This document shows, piece after piece, positions 4,092 through 27,535 of a stretch of DNA of 35,230 nt. Source of the DNA: Thermoproteota archaeon (lineage in GTDB: Archaea > Thermoproteota > Thermoprotei_A > EX4484-217-1 > JAPDJV01); the NCBI GenBank assembly GCA_029258925.1, contig JAPDJV010000044.1, positions 1 to 35,230 on the forward strand, read 5' to 3'. A program made the position numbers and the translations under genes. How positions within the stretch are numbered: the stretch's first letter is position 1; every line of letters begins with the position of its first letter. Below the pieces are notes generated by a model. The model worked only from the letters and a program-made list of their open reading frames with translations, was not told the origin of the DNA and made no database searches.

Positions 4092-5342
4092 TTACCTCTT
4101 CTTCAATATCACCAATAGCATAGCTAATATTCCTATAATACCTAGAGCAATCATGATTACCGTCGCCATGTTTATAGGTTGTTCAGGTTGAGTTGTCTCA
4201 GTCCCTGTTACCTGAGTGGCGGAGGTAGTTGGAGTCGTCATGTGTGTAGTCGGAGTAGCTGATGCTATTGGTGTTGTGGGTGTCGTAGGCGAGGGTACTG
4301 TTAAGGTAATTTTCTTAACCAACTCCTTGTTTCCCAGAAAGTCTATTGAATAATATTTGACCTCGTGTTCTCCTGGAGGAAGAATATTCAAGTCTATTGG
4401 AGTAGAGTAGACGTTCCACTCGCTGCAGTCAATACAGTAGTATGTCGAACTTACACCAACACCGTTATCTACTGCTACCAATGATAACATGAGGTTTTCA
4501 GTTATCATACTAGTCGTATTAGGGGGTGTGTTGTCTAGAAGTATGTTAATGGATCTTGTTTCCTCTACGTTCCCGTAGATGTCTACTGAATAATATTCTA
4601 GAGTATAGGGTCCGTCGGGAACATTCGAAATATTGAATGGTGACTGATATATTTTCCAGCTAGTCCATATCGATAGTCTATAGTATGTTGATTTAACCCC
4701 CTTATTGTCTGAAGCGTTTAACGATATTGTTGTAGAGGAAGTTATGTAAGTCACGTTATTCATGGGGATGCTTGGCGACCCAACTATGATAACTGTTTTA
4801 GGAGGCTCGTAATCTTTTGATGCCTCTATTTTGAATTTCCTTATTTCTCCAGGAGACATCTGAATCGTGATGGCCGATTCCTTAATCATGTCCCATTTGA
4901 ATCCGGTTAAGCAGTCTACAAGGGAAAAAATATTGTACTCTGATTTCAGTAGACTCGAATTACTCCAAGATAATGTAATGTTTCTGGACTCCGTGTTTGA
5001 GTAGTATATTATTAAGGTCCAAGAATTGTTTTCAACAGGTCCAAACTTTACGTCTCTTTGAAGCCTATTGTAGGGTTCAGAAAGGTTTTCGATGAAGTAT
5101 GCGTCCAGTATTGGGGGAGGGCTTGGGGGAGGATTTGGCATATCGTGGCTGTCGATTCCATTACTAGCATTATATGCTTCTCCGAAGACAACCTCATCGC
5201 TTAGATTACTTCCGGAAACAGTTATCACTATAGTGCAATTCCATTGATCGCTATATCCGTGAACTCTCAAACCACTATTTAGTATGAGTACTAACATCAT
5301 CGTGGTCAATATTATAAACGCTGAGAGCTTGGAGGCGGCCAT
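4092..5342 (-). CDS. Membrane-anchored cell-surface protein with two OmpL47-like repeats
   Basis: An N-terminal signal segment (AFIILTTMMLVLILN) precedes an outside part. First comes a domain of about 130 residues with VVFGEAYNASNG and DMPNPPPSPPP, shared with the divergent protease gene. Two Ig-like repeats of the OmpL47 type follow, marked by KSTYYR...SPFNIS...YYSVDIYGN and SSTYYC...TPIDL...YYSIDFLGN. After a Thr/Pro/Ser linker, the C-terminal membrane helix MATVIMIALGIIGILAMLLVI is followed by KKR, as in archaeal surface proteins. ATG 5342 has GGTGG just before it. GTG 5357 is an alternative without a good site. A structural or adhesive surface role is likely. Specific function is unknown. 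Confidence 0.78.
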   Translation of the reverse strand: MAASKLSAFIILTTMMLVLILNSGLRVHGYSDQWNCTIVITVSGSNLSDEVVFGEAYNASNGIDSHDMPNPPPSPPPILDAYFIENLSEPYNRLQRDVKFGPVENNSWTLIIYYSNTESRNITLSWSNSSLLKSEYNIFSLVDCLTGFKWDMIKESAITIQMSPGEIRKFKIEASKDYEPPKTVIIVGSPSIPMNNVTYITSSTTISLNASDNKGVKSTYYRLSIWTSWKIYQSPFNISNVPDGPYTLEYYSVDIYGNVEETRSINILLDNTPPNTTSMITENLMLSLVAVDNGVGVSSTYYCIDCSEWNVYSTPIDLNILPPGEHEVKYYSIDFLGNKELVKKITLTVPSPTTPTTPIASATPTTHMTTPTTSATQVTGTETTQPEQPINMATVIMIALGIIGILAMLLVILKKR

Positions 5343-5416
5343 AATGCCACCACACACTTAATCATTCAAGTGTAAAATATTTAATTTTCTCTTTGAAAAC
5401 AATTCCTTTGTAAAAA

Positions 5417-5486: not shown

Positions 5487-8400
5487 ATGGCAAGCTACTC
5501 TAACATAGCTTCAATACTTGCCACGATATTCTTAATAATTTCAATGCTATCACCTACCATAATAGGGCTTAAGGTGAATACGCTTCGTCCTCCAATTAAA
5601 ACCATGAAAACCAATGCAAAGAATTGCAGTGTACTTACAATAAGTAGAATAAATACATTTAAGAAACCTTTAATGGAGTCTCCCGAAACCTCTGGAGACT
5701 ATGGGGACACTGTTGTTTTTGTTGAAGACTTTGAAGGAGAGTTTCCGGGAGAATGGTATGTTGAAGATTTAGATAATGCTTCTGGATTTGACTATTGGGG
5801 TGATGATGATTACAGGGCCTACGAGGGCAATTGGAGTTGCTGGTGTGCTAAGACAGGAGAGCATTCGGAAGAGAATGTGCCGAATAGTGAGGTACGCTTA
5901 TACGATAACTACATGGGCGCCGTACTAGCTAGGGGAGGATTTGATGCAAGGTCTTGGGACGTGGCTTCAATATCTTTCTATACATGGTACGATATTGAGG
6001 AGGAATACGATTATCTTTATCTCTTCGTATACGATGGAGAGGACTGGCACATGATATGGGAGGCTACGGGCTCAACTAATGGTGAGTGGAGGTATGTAGA
6101 TATTAGAGTGCCCGATGAATATCTTAATACAGATGATTTCTGGCTCGCATTCTACTTTTATTCTGATATGAGCATATACTTCGAGGGAGCTTATTTAGAC
6201 TACATCCAGGTTAAAACATATGATATTGGACTACTAGATTATAATTTGAACACTAACATTACCAATCCGGGTGAAGCATTCGAGATAAGCTATTATATTG
6301 ATAACAGTTCTCCCTATAATATAGAAGTGGGTCTTGGTGCAGCCCTTAGGGATCCCAATGGAAATATTATCTACGATCATGAAAACGATGTAGTAGTAAC
6401 TGTTCCAGCAAACAGTACTGTATGGGCGGAGAGATTGTTCAAGATGCCCTCAGACGCTGTGAGCGGTAGCTACGATCTCCAGCTAACCTTATGGTCCGGG
6501 GATCCATGGAATAGTAGGCTCTGGCACGATTCCGGATGGATAAGCAATGCGATAGAGTTAGAGTCGAACGAATACTTTTACGATGTAACAATAAATCCCT
6601 TAGACTCTGATGGCGATGGATATAATGATGGGCTTGAAATCGAAATGGATGTAGATACAACCGATGGAACGCTAATGGTTACTGTTGCAGGCTACTTGGT
6701 TGATAGTAATAATAATGTTGTTAACAGTAGTTACGCTTCATGGCAGATAACTGGTGACGCTGTGGAATACGGATACTTGTATGTCTATGTTCCAAATAGT
6801 TCTGAAGCCGGAAACTACCATGTAGACTTGTACCTATATGATGATGAAGGAGATCTTGAAGACTATTATACTTCGGAAAACTATTACCTTTACCCACCTG
6901 GATACCAGGTTCCAGTTAAGAAGTGGACTTTCATAGTTTACCTGGACGGAGATAATAACTTGGAGGATGCAGCTCTGAGAGATCTGAATGAGATGGAGAG
7001 AGTTGGTTCAAACAGTGACATCAATATTTTAGTGTTATTCGATCCATATTCGGGCTATGGAAGTTACGTTTACTACATCGTCCACGACGAAGACGACGAT
7101 GAAGTGAATTCTCCATGCAGTGAACTAGGTGAAGTAAACATGGGAGATCCAAGTACGCTTGCATTGTTCACCGAGTGGGCTATAGAAAACTTTCCTGCAG
7201 AACACTACGTTCTAGTAGTCTGGAATCACGGCAATGGATGGAAGGCTCACGATATTGGCGAAACAGCTGTCTGTTCCGACGACACGGACGAAGATATTCT
7301 AACTATTTGGGAACTCGAAGAAGCTCTAGAGAACATATATGAGGAGAAAGGCGTTGTGATGGATATTATAGCGTTTGATGCGTGTCTAATGGGAATGTTC
7401 GAGGTAGGATATCAAGTAAAAGACTACACTAAAATAATGGTTGCATCAGAGGAGACAGTTCCAGGAAGCGGTTATCCATACGACGCCATCCTATTGGAAC
7501 TAGTATCTAATCCCTCGATGAGTCCAGAAGATCTTTCCAGGATAATTGTAGAAAAGTACATGGAGTTCTATGGTACAAGTGGAGATGAAACTCTCTCAGC
7601 TCTGGATCTAGACAAGGCCAGCGATGTTGCAAATGCGCTCGACAATTTAGCGTACATGCTAATTATTAACGTTAAAAACTATTATGATGAGATCTACGAT
7701 GCATGGAACTACGTGGAGTACTTTCACTACTATTACTACAATGACCTATACCATTATGCACAACTCATTCAAGAATACATTCAAGACGTTGCCATTCAGC
7801 AGGCTGCAGTAAATGTAATGGATGTCGTCGAAGACGCCATAATAGCTGAAGGACATGGATCTGAGCACTCCAACGCGCATGGAATATCAATATATCTCCC
7901 AGCACACGAGGAAAACTACTTCGAGCACTACGAATACTTGAAGTTGTCGCAGGACACTAGGTGGGATGACTTCATAAGAGCTTTCCTGAATCCGGAGGAA
8001 GTGCCAGAAGGCATCCTATGGTACTGTACGGTTTCAATAGAAGAAGGAGAATACTACGACTACGTTGTTTTCGGCGAGGCAACAGACTCCACTGACAGTC
8101 TTGACAATAGAGATGTACCGAATCCTCCTCCAAGTCCAAGTCAAGCCGTGGACATTTATCTCGCAACAGATCTTCCATCACCATATGATAAGCTCTGGGA
8201 GGATTGGCGGAAGGGGCCGAGCAGTAGTAAGGGTTGGATTCTAATAGTTCACTCATACACTACAACACCTATAACAATAACTTTAACATGGAGTTTTGAT
8301 CACCCCGAGAACTTTGAGTATTCTTCAGTAATTCTACGAGACGATACCACTGGCTGTAGAATAGATATGATGGAAAACTCGAGTTACCAGTTTACGTTGA

Positions 8401-8966
8401 GCCCAGGCGAGTCAAGAATGTTGAAAATTGTTTGCGGCAGTATGAGAAGAATATCGTTGTTGTCGAGGGGGTGGAATCTGATAAGTGTTCCTACTGGCGA
8501 GAGCATATCCTTAAGCGATTTACTCATAAATTATAATGGGGAATTTTACACGTGGGAGGAGGCAGCCGAAAACGGAATTGTCATGGAGTATGTTTACGGG
8601 TGGGCTGGAAGCAGGTTTGAGGCTGTTAACAGTATTGATGCTGGGAAAGGTTATTGGGTCTACGTTTACGAGGACTGTGAGCTCTGGGTTTTCGTGGTCT
8701 CTTACAGTACTGGATGGATTGCAAGTCTTCAAGTGGGCTGGAACCTCATAGGGTTACCTTCAACTATAAGTGTAAGCGTTGAAAACCTCTGGATCTACTA
8801 TAACGGTGAATGGTATACGTGGAGTGATGCTGTAAACATGGGGCTCATAGTTCCCTACGTCTACGGTTGGCAAGAAAACTATTATATTCTAGCAGACGTG
8901 ATCGAAGCGGGTCTGGGCTACTGGATTTACGCCAACGTTCCATGCCTCCTATACTATCAACACTAG
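5487..8966 (+). CDS. Secreted clostripain-family (C11) cysteine protease, multidomain
   Basis: This 1159-residue exported protease has a signal peptide at residues 5-27. Residues 70-250 form a lectin/MAM-like jelly-roll region (VVFVEDFEGEFPGEWY). A calcium-loop motif DSDGDGYNDG lies near 373. The C11 domain begins at about 478 with KWTFIVYLDGDNNLE. His581 (WNHGNGW) and Cys633 (DACLMG) are the expected catalytic pair. Asp631, two before the cysteine, occupies the place of the clostripain residue that selects Arg/Lys at P1. Residues 845-985 are the domain shared with the divergent surface protein (FGEATDSTDSLDN, VPNPPPSP). Residues 987-1159 are two tandem repeats, each opening GWNLI and carrying YNGE.YTW and GYW. 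No C-terminal membrane helix is seen. ATG 5487 has GGAGGT 11 bases before it. Cleavage specificity is inferred. Confidence 0.87.
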   Translation: MASYSNIASILATIFLIISMLSPTIIGLKVNTLRPPIKTMKTNAKNCSVLTISRINTFKKPLMESPETSGDYGDTVVFVEDFEGEFPGEWYVEDLDNASGFDYWGDDDYRAYEGNWSCWCAKTGEHSEENVPNSEVRLYDNYMGAVLARGGFDARSWDVASISFYTWYDIEEEYDYLYLFVYDGEDWHMIWEATGSTNGEWRYVDIRVPDEYLNTDDFWLAFYFYSDMSIYFEGAYLDYIQVKTYDIGLLDYNLNTNITNPGEAFEISYYIDNSSPYNIEVGLGAALRDPNGNIIYDHENDVVVTVPANSTVWAERLFKMPSDAVSGSYDLQLTLWSGDPWNSRLWHDSGWISNAIELESNEYFYDVTINPLDSDGDGYNDGLEIEMDVDTTDGTLMVTVAGYLVDSNNNVVNSSYASWQITGDAVEYGYLYVYVPNSSEAGNYHVDLYLYDDEGDLEDYYTSENYYLYPPGYQVPVKKWTFIVYLDGDNNLEDAALRDLNEMERVGSNSDINILVLFDPYSGYGSYVYYIVHDEDDDEVNSPCSELGEVNMGDPSTLALFTEWAIENFPAEHYVLVVWNHGNGWKAHDIGETAVCSDDTDEDILTIWELEEALENIYEEKGVVMDIIAFDACLMGMFEVGYQVKDYTKIMVASEETVPGSGYPYDAILLELVSNPSMSPEDLSRIIVEKYMEFYGTSGDETLSALDLDKASDVANALDNLAYMLIINVKNYYDEIYDAWNYVEYFHYYYYNDLYHYAQLIQEYIQDVAIQQAAVNVMDVVEDAIIAEGHGSEHSNAHGISIYLPAHEENYFEHYEYLKLSQDTRWDDFIRAFLNPEEVPEGILWYCTVSIEEGEYYDYVVFGEATDSTDSLDNRDVPNPPPSPSQAVDIYLATDLPSPYDKLWEDWRKGPSSSKGWILIVHSYTTTPITITLTWSFDHPENFEYSSVILRDDTTGCRIDMMENSSYQFTLSPGESRMLKIVCGSMRRISLLSRGWNLISVPTGESISLSDLLINYNGEFYTWEEAAENGIVMEYVYGWAGSRFEAVNSIDAGKGYWVYVYEDCELWVFVVSYSTGWIASLQVGWNLIGLPSTISVSVENLWIYYNGEWYTWSDAVNMGLIVPYVYGWQENYYILADVIEAGLGYWIYANVPCLLYYQH
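8019..8441 (+). repeat. Domain copy in the protease shared with the divergent surface protein
   Basis: This segment encodes residues 845-985, running from WYCTVSIEEGEYYDYVVFGEA to LSPGESRMLKIV. It matches, across the minus strand, about 4815-5240 (WNCTIVITVSG...VVFGEA...MSPGEIRKFKI). Conserved in both are VVFGEA, D.PNPPPSP, PY..L..D...GP, the WxLI strand and LSPGE/MSPGE. The GEA.DSTDSLD..D.PNPPPSP core resembles the FG...ATDGFD...D.P.PP.PP beta-sandwich motif known from bacterial secreted proteins. That match is from memory. Confidence 0.65.
8442..8963 (+). repeat. Tandem C-terminal repeats (two units) in the protease
   Basis: Unit 1 (residues about 987-1068) and unit 2 (about 1075-1159) share the order GWNLI(S/G)(V/L)P, then INYNGE or YYNGE followed by (F/W)YTW, then YVYGW, then G.GYW(V/I)Y. 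Such GWNLI repeats occur at the ends of secreted archaeal and bacterial proteins. A cell-wall or S-layer contact is inferred. Confidence 0.65.
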
Positions 8967-16533: not shown

Positions 16534-16592
16534 TTATTTTGATTAGCCAATTTTCTTATAGGTTCTCCATTTTCCTATTCTACATAGTACAT

Positions 16593-16618
16593 AATGTTTA
16601 AATATAATTTTAAACATT
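16593..16618 (+). promoter_or_regulatory. TATA box embedded in a perfect 10-bp inverted repeat (ECF operon promoter)
   Basis: AATGTTTAAA (16593-16602) and TTTAAACATT (16609-16618) are exact inverted copies separated by TATAAT. The site lies 30 bases before the ATG at 16649, the expected place for an archaeal TATA element. A dimeric repressor covering the TATA box is a natural reading, and the symmetry is visible directly. The regulator is unknown. Confidence 0.6.
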
Positions 16619-16648
16619 AGATATTGATGATTAGGAGAGGTTTTCACC

Positions 16649-16789
16649 ATGAACCTACTCGACATTATTTGGAGTGGACTAGGATACGAATTAGGGAATC
16701 TTGTTAACTGGATTGTGGGGCTGATTGAGGGAGGCCTAGCATACATTATTTGGAAGCTATATAAGAGGCATAGTGATTGGTTCAGGTGA
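16649..16789 (+). CDS. 46-residue single-helix membrane peptide, first gene of the ECF operon
   Basis: The peptide runs MNLLDIIWSG to HSDWFR, with one hydrophobic stretch (LVNWIVGLIEGGLAYIIW) followed by the basic KLYKRH. AGGAGAGG lies 9 bases before the ATG. Its stop sits 6 bases before the GTG of the next gene, whose ribosome site (AGGTGA) overlaps its final codons. Such coupling supports a real gene. No homologue is recalled. A small subunit of the transporter or an anchor for the outside proteins is inferred. Confidence 0.6.
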   Translation: MNLLDIIWSGLGYELGNLVNWIVGLIEGGLAYIIWKLYKRHSDWFR

Positions 16790-16795
16790 TAAAAC

Positions 16796-17386
16796 GTGAA
16801 GCCTATACTAAAAGCGGTGATAGCCATAATAATCATAGCTGCTACAGTTGCAGGAGCATACATGTACTGGCTTCAAACACTACAACAGCCTCCCCCAAAG
16901 CCTACTGGAGAGGTAATATTGACTGTTGAGGGTAAAATTACTAAAACAAACACTGAAGACGGGAGATTTCAGTTCGACATAGATATGCTCGAAAACATTG
17001 CTGACAAGGAGTACACTATTCTTGATCCATGGCTCAAAGAGAGCATAAACTATACTGGCGTAAGCCTGGTTAAGCTCCTTGAATATGTTGGAGCCGAGGA
17101 CAAGGCTGTTAGAATTGCTGTTCGCGCTAGAGACGATTATACAGTTGTCTTCGATATAAAAGGACTTAAAGAGTATGGTCAGGACATTATGATAGCCTTC
17201 AAGGCAAACGGCCAATACATACCTGAGTCGAAGGGAGGTCCATTAAAGATAGTGTTGCCCCCGGATCAAGAACATCAAATAGTTGAACACGTACTAGTCG
17301 GTGTTGTTTCTGGGGAAGGGGTGAACTTCGATAAGGAGTTTAATAGAGCTTTTGAATGGTGGGTTGTAAGAATAATAATACAGTAG
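16796..17386 (+). CDS. Anchored sulfite-oxidase-fold (molybdopterin-domain-like) protein without cysteine
   Basis: An N-terminal membrane anchor (AVIAIIIIAATVAGAYMYWL) and a Pro-rich linker precede a 150-residue outside domain. The order VEGKITK, FDIDMLE, INYTGVSLVKLLEYVGA, IRIAVRARDDYTVVF, MIAFKANGQYIPESKGGPLKIVLP and WWVVRIIIQ follows the oxidoreductase molybdopterin-binding (sulfite-oxidase) fold. The whole protein has no cysteine, so the metal-binding cysteine of true sulfite oxidases is absent. A ligand-binding role is therefore more likely than catalysis. The start is GTG with AGGTGA 5 bases before. It sits inside the ECF operon, which suggests it captures the transported compound. This function is inference. 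Confidence 0.68.
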   Translation: MKPILKAVIAIIIIAATVAGAYMYWLQTLQQPPPKPTGEVILTVEGKITKTNTEDGRFQFDIDMLENIADKEYTILDPWLKESINYTGVSLVKLLEYVGAEDKAVRIAVRARDDYTVVFDIKGLKEYGQDIMIAFKANGQYIPESKGGPLKIVLPPDQEHQIVEHVLVGVVSGEGVNFDKEFNRAFEWWVVRIIIQ

Positions 17387-17402
17387 GAAGCCGGAGGTTA
17401 AA

Positions 17403-19472
17403 TTGTTGAGTATTGATGAAAGTCTCGTAATAAGAGCGTTTTTTCTCTCAATCATACTGCTACTTTACCCATTAAACACCATTCTACACGTTCAAGCTTC
17501 TAATCCTATTGAAGTCGTGGTCTTCGAGGACTCTAATGGTAATGGGGTTTTTGACTCCGGCGAGACTCCTTTAGGGGGTGTTCGAGTGTCTAATATGGAG
17601 CAAATAGTTTTAACTGATGGCTCCGGTAAGACTATTCTGGAGCCTGGACCATATAATACGATATATGTTTCGATTCCATCAGGATATACGAATACTACAC
17701 CATGGTTCTACCGTGTAGTAGATTTTGGGGGAAGACTGGTCTTCGGCCTAAAGACAGTAGAACAGAGTAGGGATTTTTTCATAGTTCAGTTAACCGATAT
17801 ACACTTAGCTGAAGACCCTGGCGAGGTTAGGGAGGTTTTCAAAAATAATGCAACCGTTAACCCTTATGAAACATTCATTCATGCACTTGAAGAGGTTAAG
17901 AGTATTAAGGGGGAAATTGTTTTAGCTGTAACCGGGGACATTGTCGTAGACTCTAATTATCCTGAAACCGAGGATGTTATTGAATGGTATTCGTTATACT
18001 TGAAATCTTTGAGAAGTATTCTTGGAGACGTGAGAGTTATAAGTGTTCCCGGTAACCATGACGTTCATGGAATCAGTAATCCATCTATAAGCCCAGATGA
18101 CCCCGACTATGGTTTGAACCTCTATAGATCCATCTTAGGCCCAGAATATTACTCCCTCGACTACTCCAATGTCCACATAGTTGTCTTAAGCCCGCACATA
18201 GTGGTTGGCAGAGACCTCATATACTCTTTCCCCGAGGAAGAAGTGAAGTGGCTTGAAGAAGATTTGGAACTATCCGGGAATAAGAGTATAATTGTTTTAG
18301 TACACGAGCCTCCAATAAACTGGGTTAAAGACCATGCCACCATGAGGGTCTTAGAACTACTTAACAGTAGAAGGGCTACAATTTTATGTGGCCACTGGCA
18401 TGTAAACGCCTATTTTGAGTATGAGAACCTAAGAATATTTGTATCAGCCTCTCTATCAGCCTCTTGGTGGGCTGGCCTCTCCCGGGACGGGAGCTCTAGC
18501 GGATACACTGTTTACCGTTGGAGTGGAGACGGTATTGAGAGATTCTTTAAGCCCGTGGGTCAGACAATAGTTTTCGAACTGGTTTCACCTAGAAATATTG
18601 CATTGAATGAGGGAACCATCGACCTATATCTAAGCGTTTGGCCTGAAGACACTGATGTCTCCTTTGAGGGGGACGGAGTAGTCGATAATTTTACAATAGT
18701 ATACTCTAACGGTTTGTGGAGAAAAATAAGAGTACCATGGAATTTAACTAATGTAATGCCAGGTTGGAGGAGCATCGTGGTTTCAGGGGGAGGATTCTCC
18801 CGGGAATTCTACTACTATGTCACAAATGATAGTGTACCTTATTCTCAAATAATTAAAATGGCCTCGAAGATTTATGGGAGGAAATATTGTTATATGGGAT
18901 TCTATACTGGGTACAATTTAGCGAAGTACACTTATATTCTCCACGACAACGCTTCTGCAATACTATTAGGTGCAAACTACATTAAGAGAACTCTTAGCCT
19001 GAGCAACGGGGATATTGTGTACTTCGAGGGAATGGTGATGATACCCAGAGAAGACATGTTACTCAAGGATAGGCCAGTAATAGAGGTTTTCGAGGAGCCC
19101 TCTATTATAGGGAGAGCTGATCTAAAGCCTGTTAAGAAGAAGATTAGTGAACTATCTGAGAACACGCCTTTAGTGGAGGTTGAGGGAGATGTTGAGAGCT
19201 CCAACATAGAATATTATGTTCTCAGAGATAGTAGTGGGACAGTTAAAGTTGTGGACTTAACGAGATCCTATCGTCCTGATAAGGGGGCTAAATTGAGGGT
19301 TAAAGGTGTTCCCGTGGAAGTGTATGGAAACATAGTGCTCTTATCTAGGGGAGCCGAGGACGTCTCGGAGATCGTGGAGGGCCAGACTCCTGGTCTAAAC
19401 TTATTGATTTACGCTATTTTAATTGTCATAGTATTGTTGATGATATTCTTTAAGGGGGTGCGTAGAAAGTGA
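17403..19472 (+). CDS. Secreted, C-terminally anchored calcineurin-like metallophosphoesterase
   Basis: A signal segment (FFLSIILLLYPLNTILHVQA) leads to an SdrD-B-like beta domain at about 36-120 (EDSNGNGVFDSGETPLGGV). The phosphoesterase domain has DIH (Asp132, His134), GD (178-179), GNHD (217-220), HEPP and GHWH, a complete two-metal set. A beta domain follows, then an OB-fold-like region with VEVEGDVESS and VKGVPVEVYGN, and a C-terminal membrane helix (LLIYAILIVIVLLMIFF) ending GVRRK. The catalytic part should face outside. The start is TTG with GGAGGT 5-6 bases before. Its stop overlaps the GTG of the ECF S-component as GTGA, linking it tightly to import. Removing phosphate from the ECF substrate before uptake is inferred. 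Confidence 0.83.
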   Translation: MLSIDESLVIRAFFLSIILLLYPLNTILHVQASNPIEVVVFEDSNGNGVFDSGETPLGGVRVSNMEQIVLTDGSGKTILEPGPYNTIYVSIPSGYTNTTPWFYRVVDFGGRLVFGLKTVEQSRDFFIVQLTDIHLAEDPGEVREVFKNNATVNPYETFIHALEEVKSIKGEIVLAVTGDIVVDSNYPETEDVIEWYSLYLKSLRSILGDVRVISVPGNHDVHGISNPSISPDDPDYGLNLYRSILGPEYYSLDYSNVHIVVLSPHIVVGRDLIYSFPEEEVKWLEEDLELSGNKSIIVLVHEPPINWVKDHATMRVLELLNSRRATILCGHWHVNAYFEYENLRIFVSASLSASWWAGLSRDGSSSGYTVYRWSGDGIERFFKPVGQTIVFELVSPRNIALNEGTIDLYLSVWPEDTDVSFEGDGVVDNFTIVYSNGLWRKIRVPWNLTNVMPGWRSIVVSGGGFSREFYYYVTNDSVPYSQIIKMASKIYGRKYCYMGFYTGYNLAKYTYILHDNASAILLGANYIKRTLSLSNGDIVYFEGMVMIPREDMLLKDRPVIEVFEEPSIIGRADLKPVKKKISELSENTPLVEVEGDVESSNIEYYVLRDSSGTVKVVDLTRSYRPDKGAKLRVKGVPVEVYGNIVLLSRGAEDVSEIVEGQTPGLNLLIYAILIVIVLLMIFFKGVRRK

Positions 19473-19954
19473 AAGAGAAGGTTTGGACCACTATTAGGAT
19501 AGCTAGAATAACAGTTCTTCTAGGACTATCCATAGCTGGATCATACATATCTCTTGGTCCAACAGCTGCTTTAGATAGTTTGGCAGGATACTTTGCTGCA
19601 GCATACTTTGGTTTACCTGAGGGAGCAGTAGTTCTTGCTTTAGGCTGCTTCTTCAGCCACTTCTCTAAAGGGCTCATAGGGCTGATTCCAATAGTTTGGA
19701 CCTCCTATCCTGCTATGGCACTAGCGGGGGCAGCATTCGCCTACACCTATAGGGCTTTCAATAAGCCTTTAAACTGGGTTATCTCGCTCACGCTTGCAGT
19801 ATTCATAAACACTTTCGGAGTACTCTTTCCCCTAGTATTCGTGTGGGGTCTAAGCATAATGTTGCCCTACTTCCCAACACTAGCCTATGCATCGTTCATA
19901 AACGCCTTCCTAGGTCTCCTCTTAGCCGAAGCAGTGAATAAGTATAGGGGCTGA
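19469..19954 (+). CDS. ECF transporter S component (substrate-binding membrane protein)
   Basis: The 161-residue protein has about five to six membrane helices (ITVLLGLSIAGSYISLGP, LDSLAGYFAAAYFGLPEGAVVLALGCFFSHF, IPIVWTSYPAMALAGAAFAYTY, WVISLTLAVFINTFGVLFPLVFVWGLSIML and AYASFINAFLGLLLAEAV). Size, the internal G.PEGA motif and position directly before the ATPase and T genes fit an energy-coupling-factor S component. GTG overlaps the preceding stop by four bases. The vitamin or metal carried cannot be read. I could not assign it to a named S family such as BioY, ThiT or CbiM. Confidence 0.8.
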   Translation: MKEKVWTTIRIARITVLLGLSIAGSYISLGPTAALDSLAGYFAAAYFGLPEGAVVLALGCFFSHFSKGLIGLIPIVWTSYPAMALAGAAFAYTYRAFNKPLNWVISLTLAVFINTFGVLFPLVFVWGLSIMLPYFPTLAYASFINAFLGLLLAEAVNKYRG

Positions 19955-19956
19955 AA

Positions 19957-21687
19957 ATGGCTAGAGCCTCAGTGGAACTAGTTAACGTATCCTATTGGTA
20001 TCCTGGTTCGAGCAAGCCTGCTCTAAGAGATATTAACTTGAAAATTGGGAGAGGAGAATTTGTTGTTATAACTGGTCCAACTGGAGCTGGGAAGACAACC
20101 TTAGCCTACATTCTCAACGGCACAATACCCCACTTCATTAAGGGAGGGAGACTTGAGGGGAAGATAATCGTTGACGGCGTAAATACTAAGGAAAACCCGA
20201 TACCCATTATAGCTCAGAAGGTCGGGCTAGTCTTCGACGACCCCGAAATACAGGCTTTCGGTTTAACTGTTTGGGACACCGTTGTGTTCGGGCCATGCAA
20301 TCTAGGGCTACCTTTGAGTGAAGTTAAGAGGAGAGCAAGGTTTGCATTAGAGTCCACAATGCTGTTGGGATATGAGAGGAGGAATCCTATTGAACTGAGT
20401 GGAGGAGAGAAGCAGAGAGTTGCGATAGCTGGAGCTCTCTCAATGCTTCCATCAATACTAGTCTTCGATGAAGCAACTGCAATGTTGGATCCCATTGGAA
20501 GAAGCCAGGTGTACGAGGTTGCAAAGTATTTGAACGAGAAGCACAGGATCACAATAATCATGATAACTCAAATCCTAGGAGAAGTAGCAGAGCTAGCCGA
20601 TAGGATAATCGTTCTAAACAACGGGGAAATCGTCGAGGAGGGAGAAACCAATGAGATTCTATCAAACTACAATGTTATTAGAGAAGCCTCTCTTAGGCCT
20701 CCACAAATAATCGAATTCTTCTATAAACTGAAGAGCAACGGTGTTCTAGAGTTGAACACCATTCCAGCAAGTATTCTCGAAGCAAAGAAGCTCTTAAAAA
20801 AGATACTGAACTCAACGCCCAAACCTATTGCTCTCCCTCATAAGCGTAGACTAAAATTTGAAGAACCCCTAATAATCGTGGAGGACGTACACTACGTTTA
20901 TCCAAGTGGACAGACTGCACTTAGAGGGGTAAGTCTTAGAATAAGTGAGGGAGAGTTCATCGGGGTTATCGGCCAAAACGGTTCAGGTAAGACAACATTA
21001 GCGAAACACCTAAACGGCTTATTAAAACCAAGTAGGGGGAGGGTTATTGTTGGGGGTGTTGACACTAGGAACACTAGTGTATCAAAGCTTGCGAGAATTG
21101 TGGGATATGTCTACCAAAATCCCGACATAATGCTCTTCAAGCCAACCGTGTGGGAGGAAATAGCCTTCGGCCCTCGAAACCTCGGATTAAGTGATGGAGA
21201 AGTGGATAAGAGGGTTAGGGAAGCTATCAGAGCTCTCGGTTTAGAGGGTTACGAGGAGAAGCCCCCCAGCTCTCTCCCAAGAGGGTTGAGGAAGAGGGTT
21301 GCACTTGCCTCAATATTGTCTATGAAACCTAAAGTGATAATCGCGGACGAACCGAATGTTGGACAAGACTGGGTGGAATCCCTAATGGTCATGGAGGCTC
21401 TCAAGGAAGCTAATAGGAGGGGAACTACGATAATGGTGATCACACACGACGTCGAGCTCATTGCAATGTTTGCTGAGAGAATAATTGTAATGGTGGATGG
21501 AAAAATAATTGCCGACGCTTCAACGAGAGAAGTCTTCACTAATAAGAGTATTCTAGAAGAAGCTAGCTTGAAGCTCCCGCAAATAACTATGTTGTTCGAA
21601 GACCAGGGTTTCCATCCTATTACCGTTAGCGAGGCGCTGGAAATAGTCGAGTATTGTAGAGGTGAACCCCGTGGCTCTAGAATATAA
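19957..21687 (+). CDS. ECF transporter double ATPase (fused EcfA-EcfA')
   Basis: Two ABC ATPase domains are joined in one chain. Domain 1 has Walker A GPTGAGKT (40-47), signature ELSGGEKQRV and Walker B LVFDEAT. Domain 2 has Walker A GQNGSGKT (near 338), a degenerate signature SLPRGLRKRV and Walker B VIIADEP, with DVELIA as switch region. The second signature departs from LSGGQ, so the two sites are likely unequal. Many archaea encode a fused pair of this kind. It starts 2 bases after the S-component stop. It energises uptake through the S and T proteins. Confidence 0.92.
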   Translation: MARASVELVNVSYWYPGSSKPALRDINLKIGRGEFVVITGPTGAGKTTLAYILNGTIPHFIKGGRLEGKIIVDGVNTKENPIPIIAQKVGLVFDDPEIQAFGLTVWDTVVFGPCNLGLPLSEVKRRARFALESTMLLGYERRNPIELSGGEKQRVAIAGALSMLPSILVFDEATAMLDPIGRSQVYEVAKYLNEKHRITIIMITQILGEVAELADRIIVLNNGEIVEEGETNEILSNYNVIREASLRPPQIIEFFYKLKSNGVLELNTIPASILEAKKLLKKILNSTPKPIALPHKRRLKFEEPLIIVEDVHYVYPSGQTALRGVSLRISEGEFIGVIGQNGSGKTTLAKHLNGLLKPSRGRVIVGGVDTRNTSVSKLARIVGYVYQNPDIMLFKPTVWEEIAFGPRNLGLSDGEVDKRVREAIRALGLEGYEEKPPSSLPRGLRKRVALASILSMKPKVIIADEPNVGQDWVESLMVMEALKEANRRGTTIMVITHDVELIAMFAERIIVMVDGKIIADASTREVFTNKSILEEASLKLPQITMLFEDQGFHPITVSEALEIVEYCRGEPRGSRI

Positions 21688-22471
21688 GAAGCTCGACACT
21701 TTCTGGCATAACCTGGACTCTAGGACAAAGTTGCTCTGGAGCATACTCGTAATATTACAGTTAGCAGTGTGGACTGATCCAGTATGGCAGCTAGCAACAT
21801 TAGTCATAATAGTTGTTCCAGGATTGATCAGCAGGACTCCTTGGAGACAGCTTAAAACACTGCTCTTATACATGCTCCCATTCACCATATTATTGATAGT
21901 TTTAGAGGCGTTTTTCTATAATCCATCGTACTTCTCGAACCGGGAGCTAGCTGGAGTAATTTTCAGCATAGGGCCTTTCAGAGCAACTATTGGAGGCCTT
22001 CTCTTCGGACTCAATATCGCCGAGAAACTGTTCTTCGCTGTTTTATTCGTAGCAGTGCTCTCATTCACCGTCCCCTTCACCGATCTACTATACATGTTCC
22101 AGAAAGTAGGACTACCTCATCAACTCACTTTCGTAATGGCGACTTCTCTCAGAATAGCACCATTATATCAGAGACTTTACAGGGAGATAACTGATGCCCA
22201 GAAAGCTAGGGGTTGGAGTCTTGAGGGGGCAGGCTTAATCGAGAAATTGAGGAGGATGATGCCTGTTCTAGTTCCATTGTTTGGCCATGCTCTGAACATG
22301 ACTGAGAGACTAGCGCTAGCCATGGAGTCCAGAGCCTTCGGATACACTAAGAAGCCTACTATTCCAGTAGAGTACGTGTTTAAAACGTGGGACTACATCG
22401 TCATATCAGTTATAATAGTATTGATAGCTCTAACGGTATATACTATGATAGCTGGCCTAGGCCAGCTATGA
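21671..22471 (+). CDS. ECF transporter T component (EcfT/CbiQ family)
   Basis: The 266-residue scaffold protein couples the ATPase to the S component. It has about five helices, among them LLYMLPFTILLIVLEAFFY and LFFAVLFVAVLSFTVPF. The coupling helices carry AQKARGWSLEGAG and AMESRAFGYTKKP, matching the two ARG-like motifs that dock on the ATPases. GTG 21671 is chosen because GAGGTGA lies 5 bases before. GTG 21662 is in frame but lacks a site. It overlaps the ATPase gene by 17 bases. It is the last gene of the operon, and its final codons form a palindrome. Confidence 0.9.
   Translation: MALEYKKLDTFWHNLDSRTKLLWSILVILQLAVWTDPVWQLATLVIIVVPGLISRTPWRQLKTLLLYMLPFTILLIVLEAFFYNPSYFSNRELAGVIFSIGPFRATIGGLLFGLNIAEKLFFAVLFVAVLSFTVPFTDLLYMFQKVGLPHQLTFVMATSLRIAPLYQRLYREITDAQKARGWSLEGAGLIEKLRRMMPVLVPLFGHALNMTERLALAMESRAFGYTKKPTIPVEYVFKTWDYIVISVIIVLIALTVYTMIAGLGQL
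22448..22469 (+). terminator. 22-bp perfect palindrome at the end of the ECF operon
   Basis: The half-site ATAGCTGGCCT is followed at once by its exact complement, ending inside the T-component stop codon. T-rich stretches (AAGTTTTCTTAAGCTTTTTG) follow. In RNA it gives a strong stem, and termination or 3'-end protection is plausible. A protein-binding palindrome is the alternative. Confidence 0.55.
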
Positions 22472-22553: not shown

Positions 22554-23189
22554 ATGGTGGATGTTCATTTGAATGTCGATGAAATAAATGATTACATTAA
22601 AGCAGCATCTAAGAGAACAGTAGACATAATAATAGTTGTGGCATTAGTGATTATATTATCTTTTATGATGGCTAGCACAACATGGTTTTTCACGGAATAC
22701 GGGATCCCGCTAGACTACATTCCCTACGTGCACGCAGCAGAAATCTTCATCTTTGGCTCACTGATAGTTGAGAAAATATCCGCCATTATCATGAAGACTG
22801 TGCTAATTGTCGCCGGGATGGCTGTAGCCAAGGGTGTTAAAACTATTACCAGAATCGTTGGTTACGGAGTCCTAATATCTCTATTAGCCTCGGTTTTCAA
22901 GGCAGATCCAGCTGCAGCCCTAGCAATGGGCGGCTTCATGGCTGTCGTAGTAGGCTATGCAACCCAGCAGGTTTTAGGAAATGCTGTGGCAGGAGTATTC
23001 TTAGTGATGTCTAGGCCCTTTAAAATAGGGGACAAGGTTAAGCTCCTCGGGAAATATGAGGGAACGGTAAGCGAAATAACAGTAATGTTCACGGTCATAG
23101 ATTCCGGGGAGAGAAGAGTGCTGATACCCAGCACGAAGATAATAGGAGACGTTATAGAGGTAATTAAAGAGGAGAAAGCTAGCTCCTAA
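22554..23189 (+). CDS. Small-conductance mechanosensitive channel (MscS family)
   Basis: The 211-residue protein has three membrane helices. The pore helix and following segment read AALAMGGFMAVVVGYATQQVLGNAVAGVFLVMSRPFKIGDKV, which is diagnostic for MscS. A short beta domain (YEGTVSEITVMFTVI, RRVLIPSTKIIG) follows. It ends there without the large vestibule part of E. coli MscS (286 residues), so it is a minimal form. It should release solutes on osmotic downshift. GAGGGGG lies about 6 bases before the ATG. It is convergent with the purine operon and overlaps its last gene by 11 bases. Confidence 0.9.
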   Translation: MVDVHLNVDEINDYIKAASKRTVDIIIVVALVIILSFMMASTTWFFTEYGIPLDYIPYVHAAEIFIFGSLIVEKISAIIMKTVLIVAGMAVAKGVKTITRIVGYGVLISLLASVFKADPAAALAMGGFMAVVVGYATQQVLGNAVAGVFLVMSRPFKIGDKVKLLGKYEGTVSEITVMFTVIDSGERRVLIPSTKIIGDVIEVIKEEKASS

Positions 23190-23760
23190 CATGTTTTATG
23201 AAGTTTTCGAAAATATTCCTACCATACATCGTGTGTGAGACTTCTGGGTGAAATTGAACGCTGAAAACATCTTTAGAGCGATGTTTGAAGGCTTGGTACA
23301 TGCAGTTCTCGCTTGAAGCGAGGTTCACTAGTACGTTAGGCCGCACTTTTACTTCATCGCTGTGGGACTCCCATACAATGAATTTTTTGGGCAATCCATC
23401 GAACAACACGTCTTCGTCAATAACACTTATCTCTACCTCTCCATATTCGGGCTTATCTGCTTTACCGACAACCCCTTTGAAGGCATACGCTATTAGATGA
23501 TGTGATAAGCATATTCCCAAAACAGGTCTATCTGTTTTTACAATTGTTTCGGCGAGCCCGCTTAAGGAATTCCTATCCTCCTCGTTACATAATGATTGGG
23601 GGCCTCCTCCTAAAACTACGGCATCAACATCCCTTAACATTTCCCTGTTAACTAGACTATAATTTATCAGCCTAGCTTTAACTCCTATTTCAATTAGTCT
23701 CCTATATATTAGATGATTGTATTGACCCCCAAAAGAGACTACTATTACGTGGAGAGTCAG
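23179..23760 (-). CDS. guaAa: GMP synthase glutamine amidotransferase subunit (GuaAa), non-standard start
   Basis: This class I glutaminase releases ammonia for GMP synthesis by the PP-loop subunit encoded just upstream. The catalytic triad is visible: Cys84 (GICLSHH), His171 and Glu173 (FHPEV). The N-terminus VIVVSFGGQYNHLIYRRLIEIGVKARLI is typical, but no ATG, GTG or TTG opens it. The frame is closed by TGA just upstream. CTG at 23760, directly after GAGGAGAT, is the only near-standard codon. The first ATG (23640) would remove 40 conserved residues. GICLSHH replaces the usual GICxGHQ. It lies 16 bases after the PP-loop subunit. Either a CTG start, a mutated start or a sequence error is possible. 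Confidence 0.82.
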   Translation of the reverse strand: MTLHVIVVSFGGQYNHLIYRRLIEIGVKARLINYSLVNREMLRDVDAVVLGGGPQSLCNEEDRNSLSGLAETIVKTDRPVLGICLSHHLIAYAFKGVVGKADKPEYGEVEISVIDEDVLFDGLPKKFIVWESHSDEVKVRPNVLVNLASSENCMYQAFKHRSKDVFSVQFHPEVSHTMYGRNIFENFIKHVRS

Positions 23761-23776
23761 ATCTCCTCAACCTCGA

Positions 23777-24898
23777 CTACTCGTATTCTATTGTTGCGGG
23801 TGGTTTAGGTGTTATATCGTAGCATATACATGTTGCTCCCGGTACTTCTTCTTCGATTCTCTTCGCAATAGATAATAGCTTGCTTTTCTCCAAATTGTGT
23901 ACTCTTGCAGTCATATAATCTTCGGTGTCTACTGCTCTAATTAAGACAATATATCCCCCGGTATTTAGGGAACCAGAGATTTTTACTACTATTCTCGATA
24001 TGTTCCCGTCTAGCTGTATTATCTTTAAGAGACTCTGCCACCTCTCAGCGCCCACCTCATTTTCCACTACAACCATTTTACCGTAAGCTCTTACATCTCC
24101 CTTAACCCCCGTAACTCTTACCCCGTTAACCTCGTATATTCCAACCTGTTCCCCCAAAGAACGCTCCAGATCGCTTCTCCTCTCAGCCGAGTTAATCGTT
24201 GCAGCCGCAAAATATTGAGATGCCCCTGTTTCAGCCAGTTCCTCCTCAACTATCATGGTTGCTCTCCGAACCACGTCGAGTTTTTCAAGAGCGAACTCTC
24301 CTATACATCTTATTAGGAGTCCTGGACCCGGGAAGGGTTGTCTATACACTATCTCCTTTGGTAGTCCAAGGTATTCAGCTATTGTCCTCACCTGATCTTT
24401 ATATAATTCTCTGAGTGGTTCAACTACCTTTATTCCTTTTCTCGAAACTTCATCGTAGAAGTCTAACACATTATGCTGTGTTTTTATTCCTCCAAGAGTC
24501 TCTATTACGTCTGGGGCTATTGTGCCTTGGATGAGATAACTGCACTCATATGATTCTATTAGTTCTAACAGTATTTCGTAGAATACTTTTCTAAACGCTA
24601 TTCGCTTTTCCTCGGCATCCTCTAATCCTTTTAGAGCTCTGTAGAACCTGTTCTTTCCGTCAATTACTTTCAACGGCATCATTTTACCTATAATTTCGGG
24701 GACTCTTCTGGGTTCACTAGGCCTCATGAAGCCTGTGTCTATGAACACCGGTTTTAACAGTTCCCCTAAAGCTCTGTAAGCTATTATTGCTGAAGTAGTG
24801 CTGTCGACTCCCCCAGATACAGCTACTAGAGCTTTCCCCTTGACGATCTTCCTAATTTCCTCTATTTTCTCCTCTATGAAAGCTCTCGGATCCCACAT
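23777..24898 (-). CDS. guaAb: GMP synthase ATP-pyrophosphatase (PP-loop) subunit (GuaAb)
   Basis: This enzyme activates XMP with ATP and transfers ammonia to give GMP. The PP-loop is SGGVDS (28-33). The XMP region includes QHNVLDFYDE, YKDQVRTIAEYLGLP and RQPFPGPGLLIRCIGE. The C-terminal dimerisation part ends with YDITPKPPATIEYE, close to the family end. The length of 373 is somewhat longer than the usual 300-310 for archaeal split forms. ATG follows the guaB stop with no gap, so expression is coupled. Confidence 0.94.
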   Translation of the reverse strand: MWDPRAFIEEKIEEIRKIVKGKALVAVSGGVDSTTSAIIAYRALGELLKPVFIDTGFMRPSEPRRVPEIIGKMMPLKVIDGKNRFYRALKGLEDAEEKRIAFRKVFYEILLELIESYECSYLIQGTIAPDVIETLGGIKTQHNVLDFYDEVSRKGIKVVEPLRELYKDQVRTIAEYLGLPKEIVYRQPFPGPGLLIRCIGEFALEKLDVVRRATMIVEEELAETGASQYFAAATINSAERRSDLERSLGEQVGIYEVNGVRVTGVKGDVRAYGKMVVVENEVGAERWQSLLKIIQLDGNISRIVVKISGSLNTGGYIVLIRAVDTEDYMTARVHNLEKSKLLSIAKRIEEEVPGATCICYDITPKPPATIEYE

Positions 24899-26017
24899 CT
24901 AGGGACTCCTCTTAACAACTATGCTGTGAGGCTTAACCTCGTATCTTCCCTGAGGCGATATTCTTGCGAAAACAGCTTTCTCCCATAGCTCGCGTATGCT
25001 TTTAGCTCCAATGTAGCCTAGCGAGGCCTTCATGCTCGCCTCCCAAGCACTCAGCACTTCTCTAACAGGTCCCCTAGCTGGAACAAGTCCTTCAACACCC
25101 TCGTCGATGGCCTTCGAAGGCTTGCTATACCTGTCTAAACTATATCTTTTCATTTTCGCAGCTCTACTACCCATACCCCTATACTCCTTATATATTACCC
25201 CTGAAACCTCGACTACTTTCCCCGGAGCCTCGTCTGTACCGGCTAAAGCATAACCTAGCATAACTGTTGATGCTCCAGCTGCAAGTGCCTTAACCGCGTC
25301 TCCCGGATTCCTTATACCTCCATCAGCTATTACCGGTATTCTCCTAGCACCGTAATCTACTAGTGCATCTGAGACTCTTGCAACTGCGAATAGTGTTGGC
25401 GCTGCAACACCTGTTACTTCCCCTGTTATACATATGCTCCCCGATCCTATTCCAACTCTTAGCGCCGCTGGCTCCTCTAGTTTTGCTAAAATATCCTCTA
25501 CAGCCTTATATGTTCCAATATTGCCTACGATCAAGTCAACCCCTACTCCCTCCATAATCTTCTTCGTTGCCTCCATAACATTCTTGTTATGGAAGTGGGC
25601 TACGTCGACTACAAGTGCATCGACATATCTAGAAAGCTCTATTGCTCTCTTAATGTCGAATGGCGATACTGCCGCAGCAACCATGAGCCTCCCCCTGTCG
25701 TCGACTATAGCATTCGGGTATTCCTCCGGGTTGAAGACGTATGATTTCACTTTCTCGGCCATTTCAACCTCCTCTTCCCTACTGCAGTTCCTATGTAACA
25801 CTCCTATGCAACCGTTTAATGCCAGCTCTATGGCCATTTTGCTCTCGGTTACAGTGTCCATGGGCGAAGAAACTATTGGAATATTTAGCACAATATTCTT
25901 AGTGAACATTGTCTTCAAGTCTGCTTGCGAGGGCTCTATCTCAGTATATCCTGGGAGAAGTATTACATCGTCGAACGTGAGAGCCATGGGTGCCTCAAGT
26001 ATTTTATTTGTAAACAT
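24899..26017 (-). CDS. guaB: IMP dehydrogenase without CBS domains
   Basis: It oxidises IMP to XMP with NAD, the step before GMP synthase in the same operon. The catalytic loop is GSGSICITGEVTG (Cys in SIC). The flap reads YRGMGSRAAKMKRYSLDRYS and includes the Arg-Tyr dyad (DRY) that marks IMP dehydrogenase and is lacking in GMP reductase. EGVEGLVPARG follows. The chain is about 372 residues because the CBS pair is absent: the barrel runs straight from FNPEEYPNAIVDDRGRLMVAAAVS. The start is ATG 26017 (MFTNKILEAPMALTFDDV) with GGTGGAGG just before. It overlaps the upstream phosphoribosyltransferase gene by 14 bases. Confidence 0.92.
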   Translation of the reverse strand: MFTNKILEAPMALTFDDVILLPGYTEIEPSQADLKTMFTKNIVLNIPIVSSPMDTVTESKMAIELALNGCIGVLHRNCSREEEVEMAEKVKSYVFNPEEYPNAIVDDRGRLMVAAAVSPFDIKRAIELSRYVDALVVDVAHFHNKNVMEATKKIMEGVGVDLIVGNIGTYKAVEDILAKLEEPAALRVGIGSGSICITGEVTGVAAPTLFAVARVSDALVDYGARRIPVIADGGIRNPGDAVKALAAGASTVMLGYALAGTDEAPGKVVEVSGVIYKEYRGMGSRAAKMKRYSLDRYSKPSKAIDEGVEGLVPARGPVREVLSAWEASMKASLGYIGAKSIRELWEKAVFARISPQGRYEVKPHSIVVKRSP

Positions 26018-26645
26018 ATGCCTCCACCTTTGGGAAAAATTGTGGGTTGGGTATTGCTTTCGCCTCCCCATTCTCGACGAACAGTTTTATTAATGATTTA
26101 ACCTTGTACCCTGTCTCCCTTAAAACTCTTTCAACACCTTTGAAGCGGGGCTTCTCCAACAATACTACAACATCGACTATTCTATAACCGTTGCTCGTTA
26201 AAGTTTTTATGAGAGCACATATTGTTCCACCTGTTGAAATCATTATGTCTGCTAAAAGTATTCTCAGCGAGGGATCCAAGTTGTTTATGTACAAGTAGGA
26301 TTTCTCGTATCCCGTGGACTTCTCGACAACGATTTCCCCTGGGAGACCATAACCTCTCTTCCTAGCGATCACTAGGGGTTTTCCGGAGATCAAGCTCATT
26401 AAGCATCCTATGTGTATACCCATAGCTTCAGGTACGAGTATTACGTCAGCTTCATTAATATTCGATATCCTGAGCATCTCGAATGCTGCAGCAAGGAGTA
26501 TTCTTGCATCTACTACACCCTGTTCTCCTAGAGGTAGAACAATGTAATCGTAGCTTCTGCCAGCATAAGACTTCCTCACTACAACTCCTTTCTCCTCTAT
26601 AAATCTACTAATCTTCTCGATAAAGCTTGACTCCCTCTCATTCAA
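26004..26645 (-). CDS. Purine phosphoribosyltransferase (archaeal Apt/Hpt-like)
   Basis: It should join a purine base to PRPP, salvaging adenine, hypoxanthine or guanine. The PRPP motif is ILLADIMISTGGT, in place of the usual DD(V/I)ISTGGT, so the first acidic residue is missing. VPEAMGIHIGCLMSLISGKPLVIARKR and a GLPGEIVV flexible-loop region match archaeal Apt-like enzymes. The start is TTG, with AGAGGAAGA about 10 bases before. It is the first gene of the guaB-guaAb-guaAa operon, which fits purine salvage feeding IMP/GMP synthesis. The base it prefers cannot be told. Confidence 0.82.
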   Translation of the reverse strand: MNERESSFIEKISRFIEEKGVVVRKSYAGRSYDYIVLPLGEQGVVDARILLAAAFEMLRISNINEADVILVPEAMGIHIGCLMSLISGKPLVIARKRGYGLPGEIVVEKSTGYEKSYLYINNLDPSLRILLADIMISTGGTICALIKTLTSNGYRIVDVVVLLEKPRFKGVERVLRETGYKVKSLIKLFVENGEAKAIPNPQFFPKVEAYVYK

Positions 26646-26764
26646 CTATACATCTTCCTCTAGACGCATCTTATGGTAAATCTTAATGTGCTAATTTAAA
26701 AATGTTAATGGATATTATCCTACTAAAATTTAAATGTTTAAATCAATAAGCTAATAGTGATCGA

Positions 26765-26773
26765 CATAAATAG
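26765..26773 (+). promoter_or_regulatory. TATA-like promoter of the second phosphoribosyltransferase
   Basis: CATAAATAG lies about 35 bases before TTG 26807 in the divergent region. The purine operon promoter is probably the TTTTTAAATTAG stretch on the minus strand near 26690-26700. Confidence 0.35.
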
Positions 26774-26806
26774 AACTCACACAATATTGAAATTGAGTGA
26801 GAATAT

Positions 26807-27535
26807 TTGAGGAAACTATACTATGATGAAGAATTCTCGGAGAGGATCGGTGTCTTCAAGGATAGGTGGGACGCTGGCATTAAGCTATCTAAGCTACTAG
26901 AAGAGGCTCTAGAGGATATTGGTGTAGAAATAGGCGATACCGTAATTCTAGCTATTCCATCTGGGGGGATCCCGGTTTGCTACTCTATGTGTAAGAGAAT
27001 TGGGGTGAAATTCGACTTAATCATCGTGAGGAAAATGCCGCACCCTCTCAACACAGAGATGGGTATTGGAGCGATGGGACCTGATGGTGAGTGGTTTATA
27101 GAGGATTGGATTCTAAGAAATCTTCCAAGAGAACTAATAGATGAATTGGTTGAGAACGTGAGGAAAGTTATTGGAGAAAGAGAGTCTTTGTTTAGGAGTG
27201 GAAGACCCTATCCAGACTTAAATGGTAGAAAAGTTATTTTGGTTGATGACGGTATAGCAGCTGGCTACACTATGATGGCTGCTGGAGGATTTACTAGGAG
27301 GAAAGGTGCTGAAATGATCATATCAGCTGTCCCTACAGCGTGTTTAAGCAGTGCTAGAAGACTCCTGGAGAGTGGCGTAGTTGACATGGTTGTGTCACCG
27401 AATATTAGATCCTTCATACCCTTCGCGGTTGCCGATGCTTATAGAACATGGTATGATGTTCCTAGAAGCGAAGTCTTGTTGATATTGGAGAATGCTAGGA
27501 GAGAAGGATTATTTGATGCAGAAGAACAGAGTTGA
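26807..27535 (+). CDS. Phosphoribosyltransferase-domain protein (COG1926-like)
   Basis: The protein is 242 residues long. The PRPP motif is VILVDDGIAAGYTMMAA, with both acidic residues. ILAIPSGGIPV and IIVRKMPHPLNTEMGIGA match the group annotated simply as predicted phosphoribosyltransferase. Base or other substrate is not known for the group. The start is TTG with a weak site. It is transcribed away from the purine operon across about 160 bases, so joint control is possible. Confidence 0.82.
   Translation: MRKLYYDEEFSERIGVFKDRWDAGIKLSKLLEEALEDIGVEIGDTVILAIPSGGIPVCYSMCKRIGVKFDLIIVRKMPHPLNTEMGIGAMGPDGEWFIEDWILRNLPRELIDELVENVRKVIGERESLFRSGRPYPDLNGRKVILVDDGIAAGYTMMAAGGFTRRKGAEMIISAVPTACLSSARRLLESGVVDMVVSPNIRSFIPFAVADAYRTWYDVPRSEVLLILENARREGLFDAEEQS

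Follow-up and report, generated by a model that had tools for sequence, protein, structure and literature searches.

Several described systems resemble parts of the locus reported here. In group I ECF importers, an S component, a fused double ATPase and a T component are encoded in one operon. PruR (Agrobacterium, PDB entry 7KOS; PMC13259868), described in PruR–DcpA and PruR–DTB systems, lies outside the cytoplasm, lacks the molybdenum cysteine of its fold family and has a conserved tyrosine and a C-terminal tryptophan; in bacteria it acts in signalling rather than transport (PMC13259868). The 5TMR sensor kinases, which have the S-component fold, carry an extra N-terminal helix, H0, that runs N-out/C-in (PMC11109136) and is followed by a cytosolic loop leading to six helices. 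CblT and CblS form an α-ribazole salvage pair. According to a 2026 review on pterin signalling, it is unknown by what means pterins pass through membranes (PMC13259868). A PruR-type protein and a transporter encoded in one operon, the arrangement described below, would be a concrete candidate for this passage.

The genes lie in a 35,230-nucleotide stretch of DNA (the window), whose archaeal origin is deduced from a two-subunit GuaA and from relatives that are archaea. It forms contig 19 of G000, a near-complete genome (98.4%) in a collection that holds four genomes of the host's order and 229 of its class. Six open frames are present on the plus strand within 16649–22471, at the positions originally assigned to them, and encode in order a 46-residue membrane peptide, a 196-residue PruR-like protein, a phosphoesterase, an S-component core, a fused ECF ATPase and a T component. 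The peptide and PruR-like genes are 6 bases apart, and the largest gap in the cluster, 16 bases, separates the PruR-like gene from that of the phosphatase; the phosphatase and S genes overlap by 4 bases, the S and ATPase genes are 2 bases apart, and the ATPase and T genes overlap by 26. The close packing noted in the preliminary description, with overlaps or gaps of at most 16 bases and a phosphatase stop that overlaps the S-component start, is therefore confirmed. A likely promoter region (16590..16648, plus strand), assigned by consensus match, contains a TATA-like A+T-rich stretch, TTTAAATATAATTTTAAAC, and a GGAGAGG ribosome site 5′ of the peptide gene. With these elements upstream and no gap exceeding 16 bases, the simplest reading of the sequence is a single transcript starting at the peptide gene; the spacing lends no support to separate transcripts, the alternative that the preliminary description had set against its model. 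The clustering is more than chance, since the nearest relative carries a homologue of the peptide as a fusion with its S component (see below).

The fused double ATPase (EcfA–EcfA′; 19957..21687, plus strand) exceeds the curated thresholds set for the two ECF ATPase families (TIGR04520, 467.7 bits; TIGR04521, 462 bits), and the Pfam domain ABC_tran is found in it in two copies. The T component (21662..22471, plus strand) matches CbiQ in Pfam (E 8e-26) and has ARG and SRA motifs at 182 and 223. The S-component core (19469..19954, plus strand), assigned from Pfam, sequence identity and the tree, spans H1–H6 and is without the H0 of its nearest relative; it matches ECF_trnsprt with an E value of 4e-7 and 30.5 bits, just under the cut-off of 30.7, and its homologue in that relative (genome G004, locus L042) lies above the cut-off with 40.4 bits. 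The S, ATPase and T genes of G004 are in the same order as those of the window, the S proteins are 51–53% identical, and in the tree the two group together (99/95) and join other helix-bearing S proteins with weak support (83/60). An AlphaFold model of a Bacillota S relative, of low confidence (pLDDT 52), has seven helices, H0 and six others, and in fold it comes closest to solved ECF S components, with TMt up to 0.70 at E values of 0.1–0.2, which are not significant. Two ECF-type ATPase domains, a T component with paired coupling motifs and an S component of the ECF fold, the features by which an ECF transporter is recognised, are all present, and the three parts form a dedicated ECF set, as first proposed. 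In this, as in the T motifs and the ATPase scores, the locus resembles group I importers; it differs from them in that its S component is divided into an H0 peptide and a core, and that genes for two anchored outside proteins lie between these.

Within 20560–21310, a glutamine takes the place of the switch histidine in the first half of the ATPase (MITQ), and the signature of the second half is degenerate (LPRGL), which leaves a single complete-looking composite ATP site. Just before the ECF set of G004 (L042:891–2263) lies an RbkR-like gene, for a riboflavin kinase that has a MarR-type helix-turn-helix; divergent to it is a second S-component-like gene, which by eye looks like RibU.

The 46-residue peptide (16649..16789, plus strand) had been taken for an extra membrane part of the system, but it is the S component's own helix H0 in detached form. 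It aligns with the N-terminus of the G004 S protein with a score of 91; shuffled sequences average 26, and none of 5000 reaches the real score. Past the peptide-like segment the G004 protein continues where the window's S core starts. The C-terminal S tails of two archaea that are more distant, G242 and G474, also match the peptide (scores 72 and 70, each reached by 0 of 3000 shuffles), and the S protein of a third, G249 (L113), likewise ends in a matching helix. The peptide is predicted to lie N-out/C-in, having no lysine or arginine before the helix and four after it. In the S proteins of G242, G474 and G249 an extra helix precedes the peptide-like tail. Judged from hydropathy and charge, this would place the start of the tail helix outside the cell and its basic end in the cytoplasm, the same orientation as that of the peptide. 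The YKRHxxWF end of the peptide also closes the distant G242 and G474 tails, and here the peptide is nearer to those tails than is the fused copy of G004. Among the 229 genomes of the class, a profile of the peptide helix gives strong matches in G000 and G004 only. The N-terminal helices of Bacillota S proteins match the peptide by position only, since their sequence similarity to it is at chance level.

As the peptide corresponds to the helix that the closest relative's S protein carries as H0, we conclude that the S component is encoded here in two pieces, which two other genes separate. Either the free peptide is ancestral or two genes were inserted into a continuous S gene, the arrangement being known from one genome. 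The H0 of 5TMR kinases has the same N-out/C-in course and the same cytosolic loop to six helices; in contrast to those kinases, the helix here belongs to transporter S proteins and in the window genome is a separate chain. Its occurrence in N-fused, C-fused and free form among related S components is evidence, of the gene-fusion kind, for an ECF subunit that is small and exchangeable.

The 196-residue protein (16796..17386, plus strand) has an N-terminal membrane anchor, a domain placed outside the cell and no cysteine. It matches Oxidored_molyb in Pfam (E 4e-10) and is the sole match to PF00174 in the window genome. When it was compared with solved structures by phmmer, the best matches were to the pterin-binding proteins 7kos (E 4.7e-19) and 7rkb (E 2.7e-18), and sulfite oxidases and dehydrogenases matched at E 0.3 or worse. 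In the tree it groups with bacterial PruR (100/99), apart from the cysteine-bearing archaeal enzymes; the window row carries a long-branch warning. Y115 stands at the position of the NDY tyrosine in PruR, and the tryptophan at the C-terminal end is kept as well (W188/W189); the position of PruR N102 is occupied by aspartate, which is reported for some PruR groups (PMC13259868). Homologues in the class are 22–32% identical, and more than 90% of rows among the archaeal homologues read have the metal cysteine that the window protein lacks. Bacterial homologues reach 33–38% identity and sit directly 5′ of EAL/GGDEF proteins or hybrid sensor kinases; these are real pruR–dcpA or pruR–kinase (PruR-DTB-like) pairs. 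No DcpA-type or DTB-type membrane regulator directly follows the PruR-like gene of the window, where the next gene is that of the phosphatase.

Judged from these matches and the tree, the protein is PruR-like, closer to PruR than to the molybdenum enzymes of the SUOX fold. The preliminary description had called it a cysteine-free molybdopterin-fold protein; the SUOX fold and the missing cofactor cysteine were correctly recognised, and the PruR-like kind was missed. Identity as a molybdenum sulfite oxidase is rejected on the lack of the cysteine and the grouping with PruR. Fold family, location outside the cytoplasm, absence of the molybdenum cysteine and the conserved tyrosine and tryptophan are shared with PruR. 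The window protein differs in being archaeal, in its N-terminal helix anchor, in the aspartate at the N102 position and in the greater length of the segment that leads to the C-terminal tryptophan; it shares its operon with a phosphatase and an ECF unit, and neither DcpA nor a sensor kinase is encoded there.

The third gene (17403..19472, plus strand) encodes an extracellular calcineurin-like phosphoesterase (Pfam Metallophos, E 9.4e-14), laid out as a signal segment, an SdrD_B/CnaB-like domain, the catalytic domain, a C-terminal region and a C-terminal membrane anchor at 665–683 with a basic tail behind it. All five metal motifs are kept (DxH 132, GD 178, GNHD 217, H 301 and GHxH 330). The anchored exterior phosphatase first described is thus upheld, and with it the presence of two anchored outside proteins in an ECF cluster, one held by an N-terminal and the other by a C-terminal anchor. 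No homologue of the phosphatase was found at E 1e-10 in the 228 other genomes of the class, nor by phmmer among solved structures, and matches on plasmids are partial and distant only. Nor is it similar to the CnaB-type outside protein of G249 (BLASTP E 0.36), which is 64% identical to that of G242.

The anatomy of the locus is well supported: gene order, the relationships to H0 and to PruR, and the intact phosphatase and ATPase motifs are all read from the sequence. From it we infer co-transcription, hand-over between the proteins, the direction of transport and the substrate, which would be a pterin or a nucleoside-like compound. The model put forward initially, in which the phosphatase frees a compound, the SUOX-fold protein binds it and the ECF unit imports it, is possible, with a pterin now the candidate substrate. 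Our preferred reading, tentative and somewhat short of probable, is that of a dedicated importer in the style of group I, with a two-chain S component, that takes up pterin after external dephosphorylation and capture. A pterin present outside the cell as a phosphate or cyclic phosphate, such as a dihydroneopterin phosphate, would be dephosphorylated by the phosphoesterase, and the PruR-like protein would capture the free, probably reduced pterin close to the membrane. The pterin would then be handed to the S component (core and H0), which would topple onto the T/ATPase module and release it inside at the cost of ATP. The phosphoesterase and PruR-like genes are probably co-transcribed with both S halves. 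That the ECF unit, the outside PruR-type protein, the outside phosphatase and an S component made of the 46-residue helix and the core together constitute a pterin importer is conceivable rather than likely.

Pterins resemble guanosine derivatives, and relatives of the S component adjoin nucleoside or cobamide-loop genes. The similarity of the 196-residue protein to PruR, with tyrosine and tryptophan kept, points in the same direction. The host also lacks an MptA-type GTP cyclohydrolase, which is present in all three order-mates and would suit pterin import weakly; MptA is likewise absent from G004, G242 and G474 and present in five others. Little weight is given to this absence, however, because 244 of the phylum's 316 near-complete genomes (77%) lack MptA and 72 have it, and on this base rate it was set aside as evidence of a need for pterin. 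Against pterin import also stand the lack of any gene for a pterin-handling enzyme in the operon, the signalling rather than transport role of bacterial PruR, relatives' neighbours that favour nucleosides or sugars, and a single-sequence structure model of the PruR-like protein that is unusable (pLDDT 41).

Moreover, neither the PruR-like nor the phosphatase gene adjoins ECF genes at the 27 other S loci of the tree set or in G249, in the stretches read, some of which lie on short contigs. Both are missing beside the ECF genes of the closest relative, G004, as well, and viral contigs that were searched held no relatives. The co-occurrence with the ECF set that a neighbourhood survey was to reveal is therefore absent in all relatives read, an outcome that the preliminary description had named as refuting its model, and for this reason the combination of PruR-like protein, phosphatase and ECF unit is lineage-specific, seen in one genome so far, and not a conserved system. 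At L099, a cysteine-bearing SUOX homologue lies about 6 kb from the S gene.

The main rival to a pterin is a nucleoside-like substrate: the ECF unit would import a nucleoside or other ribose or sugar compound, with the phosphatase as an ecto-nucleotidase and the PruR-like protein as an accessory or sensor. On the evidence of the relatives' neighbour genes, the S family leans to nucleoside, cobamide-loop or sugar compounds. Bacillota S loci adjoin a PfkB kinase, an ADP-ribosylglycohydrolase, a DeoC-type aldolase and a SorC regulator; a second S locus of G004 has an amidohydrolase and IF-2B-type isomerases as neighbours, and PfkB stands beside the S component in G127, G327 and G454. In many other archaea of the phylum a related S component adjoins an AIRS/ThiL-like kinase, often with cobalamin genes close by. 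Near the S loci of G242 and G249 are fucosidase, GH4 and sugar-isomerase-like (xylose-isomerase-like and AraA-like) genes, suggesting that the ECF operons there encode a sugar importer. We nevertheless consider this rival rather unlikely for the window, the operon of which contains none of the relatives' catabolic genes; the AIRS kinase is absent from its genome, and the PruR-like protein would be left unexplained.

Two of the Bacillota ECF operons (L053:6765–12119 and L057:6787–15110) carry a SorC regulator and a PfkB kinase, L057 additionally an ADP-ribosylglycohydrolase, a DeoC/LacD aldolase and an alcohol dehydrogenase, and they may be units of nucleoside or sugar uptake and breakdown. At L089:2238–3453, L095:6425–8747, L100:6446–8748 and similar archaeal loci, the S gene lies beside one or two AIRS/ThiL-like kinase genes. 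Loci of this type have no NCBIfam name and, by gene context, look like the counterpart of the CblT/CblS pair. A profile of the AIRS-like kinase was silent in G000 and G004, and the α-ribazole (CblT) reading of the window S component is not supported, its kinase being absent and the identity of such kinases with CblS presumed.

An improbable explanation is that the PruR-like protein and the phosphatase belong to an extracellular pterin or redox module of their own, inserted in the ECF operon and playing no part in transport. Their genes do form one block exactly where the S gene of the closest relative is continuous, and neither adjoins ECF genes elsewhere; but the spacings of the block are minimal, its end shares 4 bases with the S gene, and ECF operons of related S components repeatedly include anchored outside proteins, although unrelated ones. 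In G242, G249 and G474 an anchored CnaB-type protein is encoded between T and S (L105:4382–8455, L113:8898–13000 and L102:622–4781, in the order ATPase, T, CnaB-type protein and an S component with two extra C-terminal helices). Anchored outside partners in ECF operons are thus not unique to the window, although their kind differs.

Less probable still, and compatible with any of the other readings, is that the peptide is a decaying, functionless remnant of gene insertion; the split is known from a single genome, but the peptide has its own start, ribosome site and stop, and keeps the YKRHxxWF end common to the distant tails. We regard as very improbable indeed that the ECF unit is an exporter loading the outside PruR-like protein with a cofactor, for despite the flavin export proposed for FmnA/EetB in Listeria (PMC9973259) and the occurrence of pterins outside cells by an unknown exit route (PMC13259868), the host lacks MptA to make pterins by that route, an outside phosphatase suits capture better than export, and the sequence gives no sign of export.

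The ECF set is followed in the window by a purine nucleotide region (23179–27535), with genes for GuaA in two subunits and GuaB, these gua genes being on the opposite strand, and for two phosphoribosyltransferase-like proteins. Upstream, two divergent genes (4092–5357, minus strand, and 5487–8966, plus strand) encode surface proteins with a common motif, VVFGEA...PNPPPSP, the larger of which has by eye the look of a clostripain-type peptidase.
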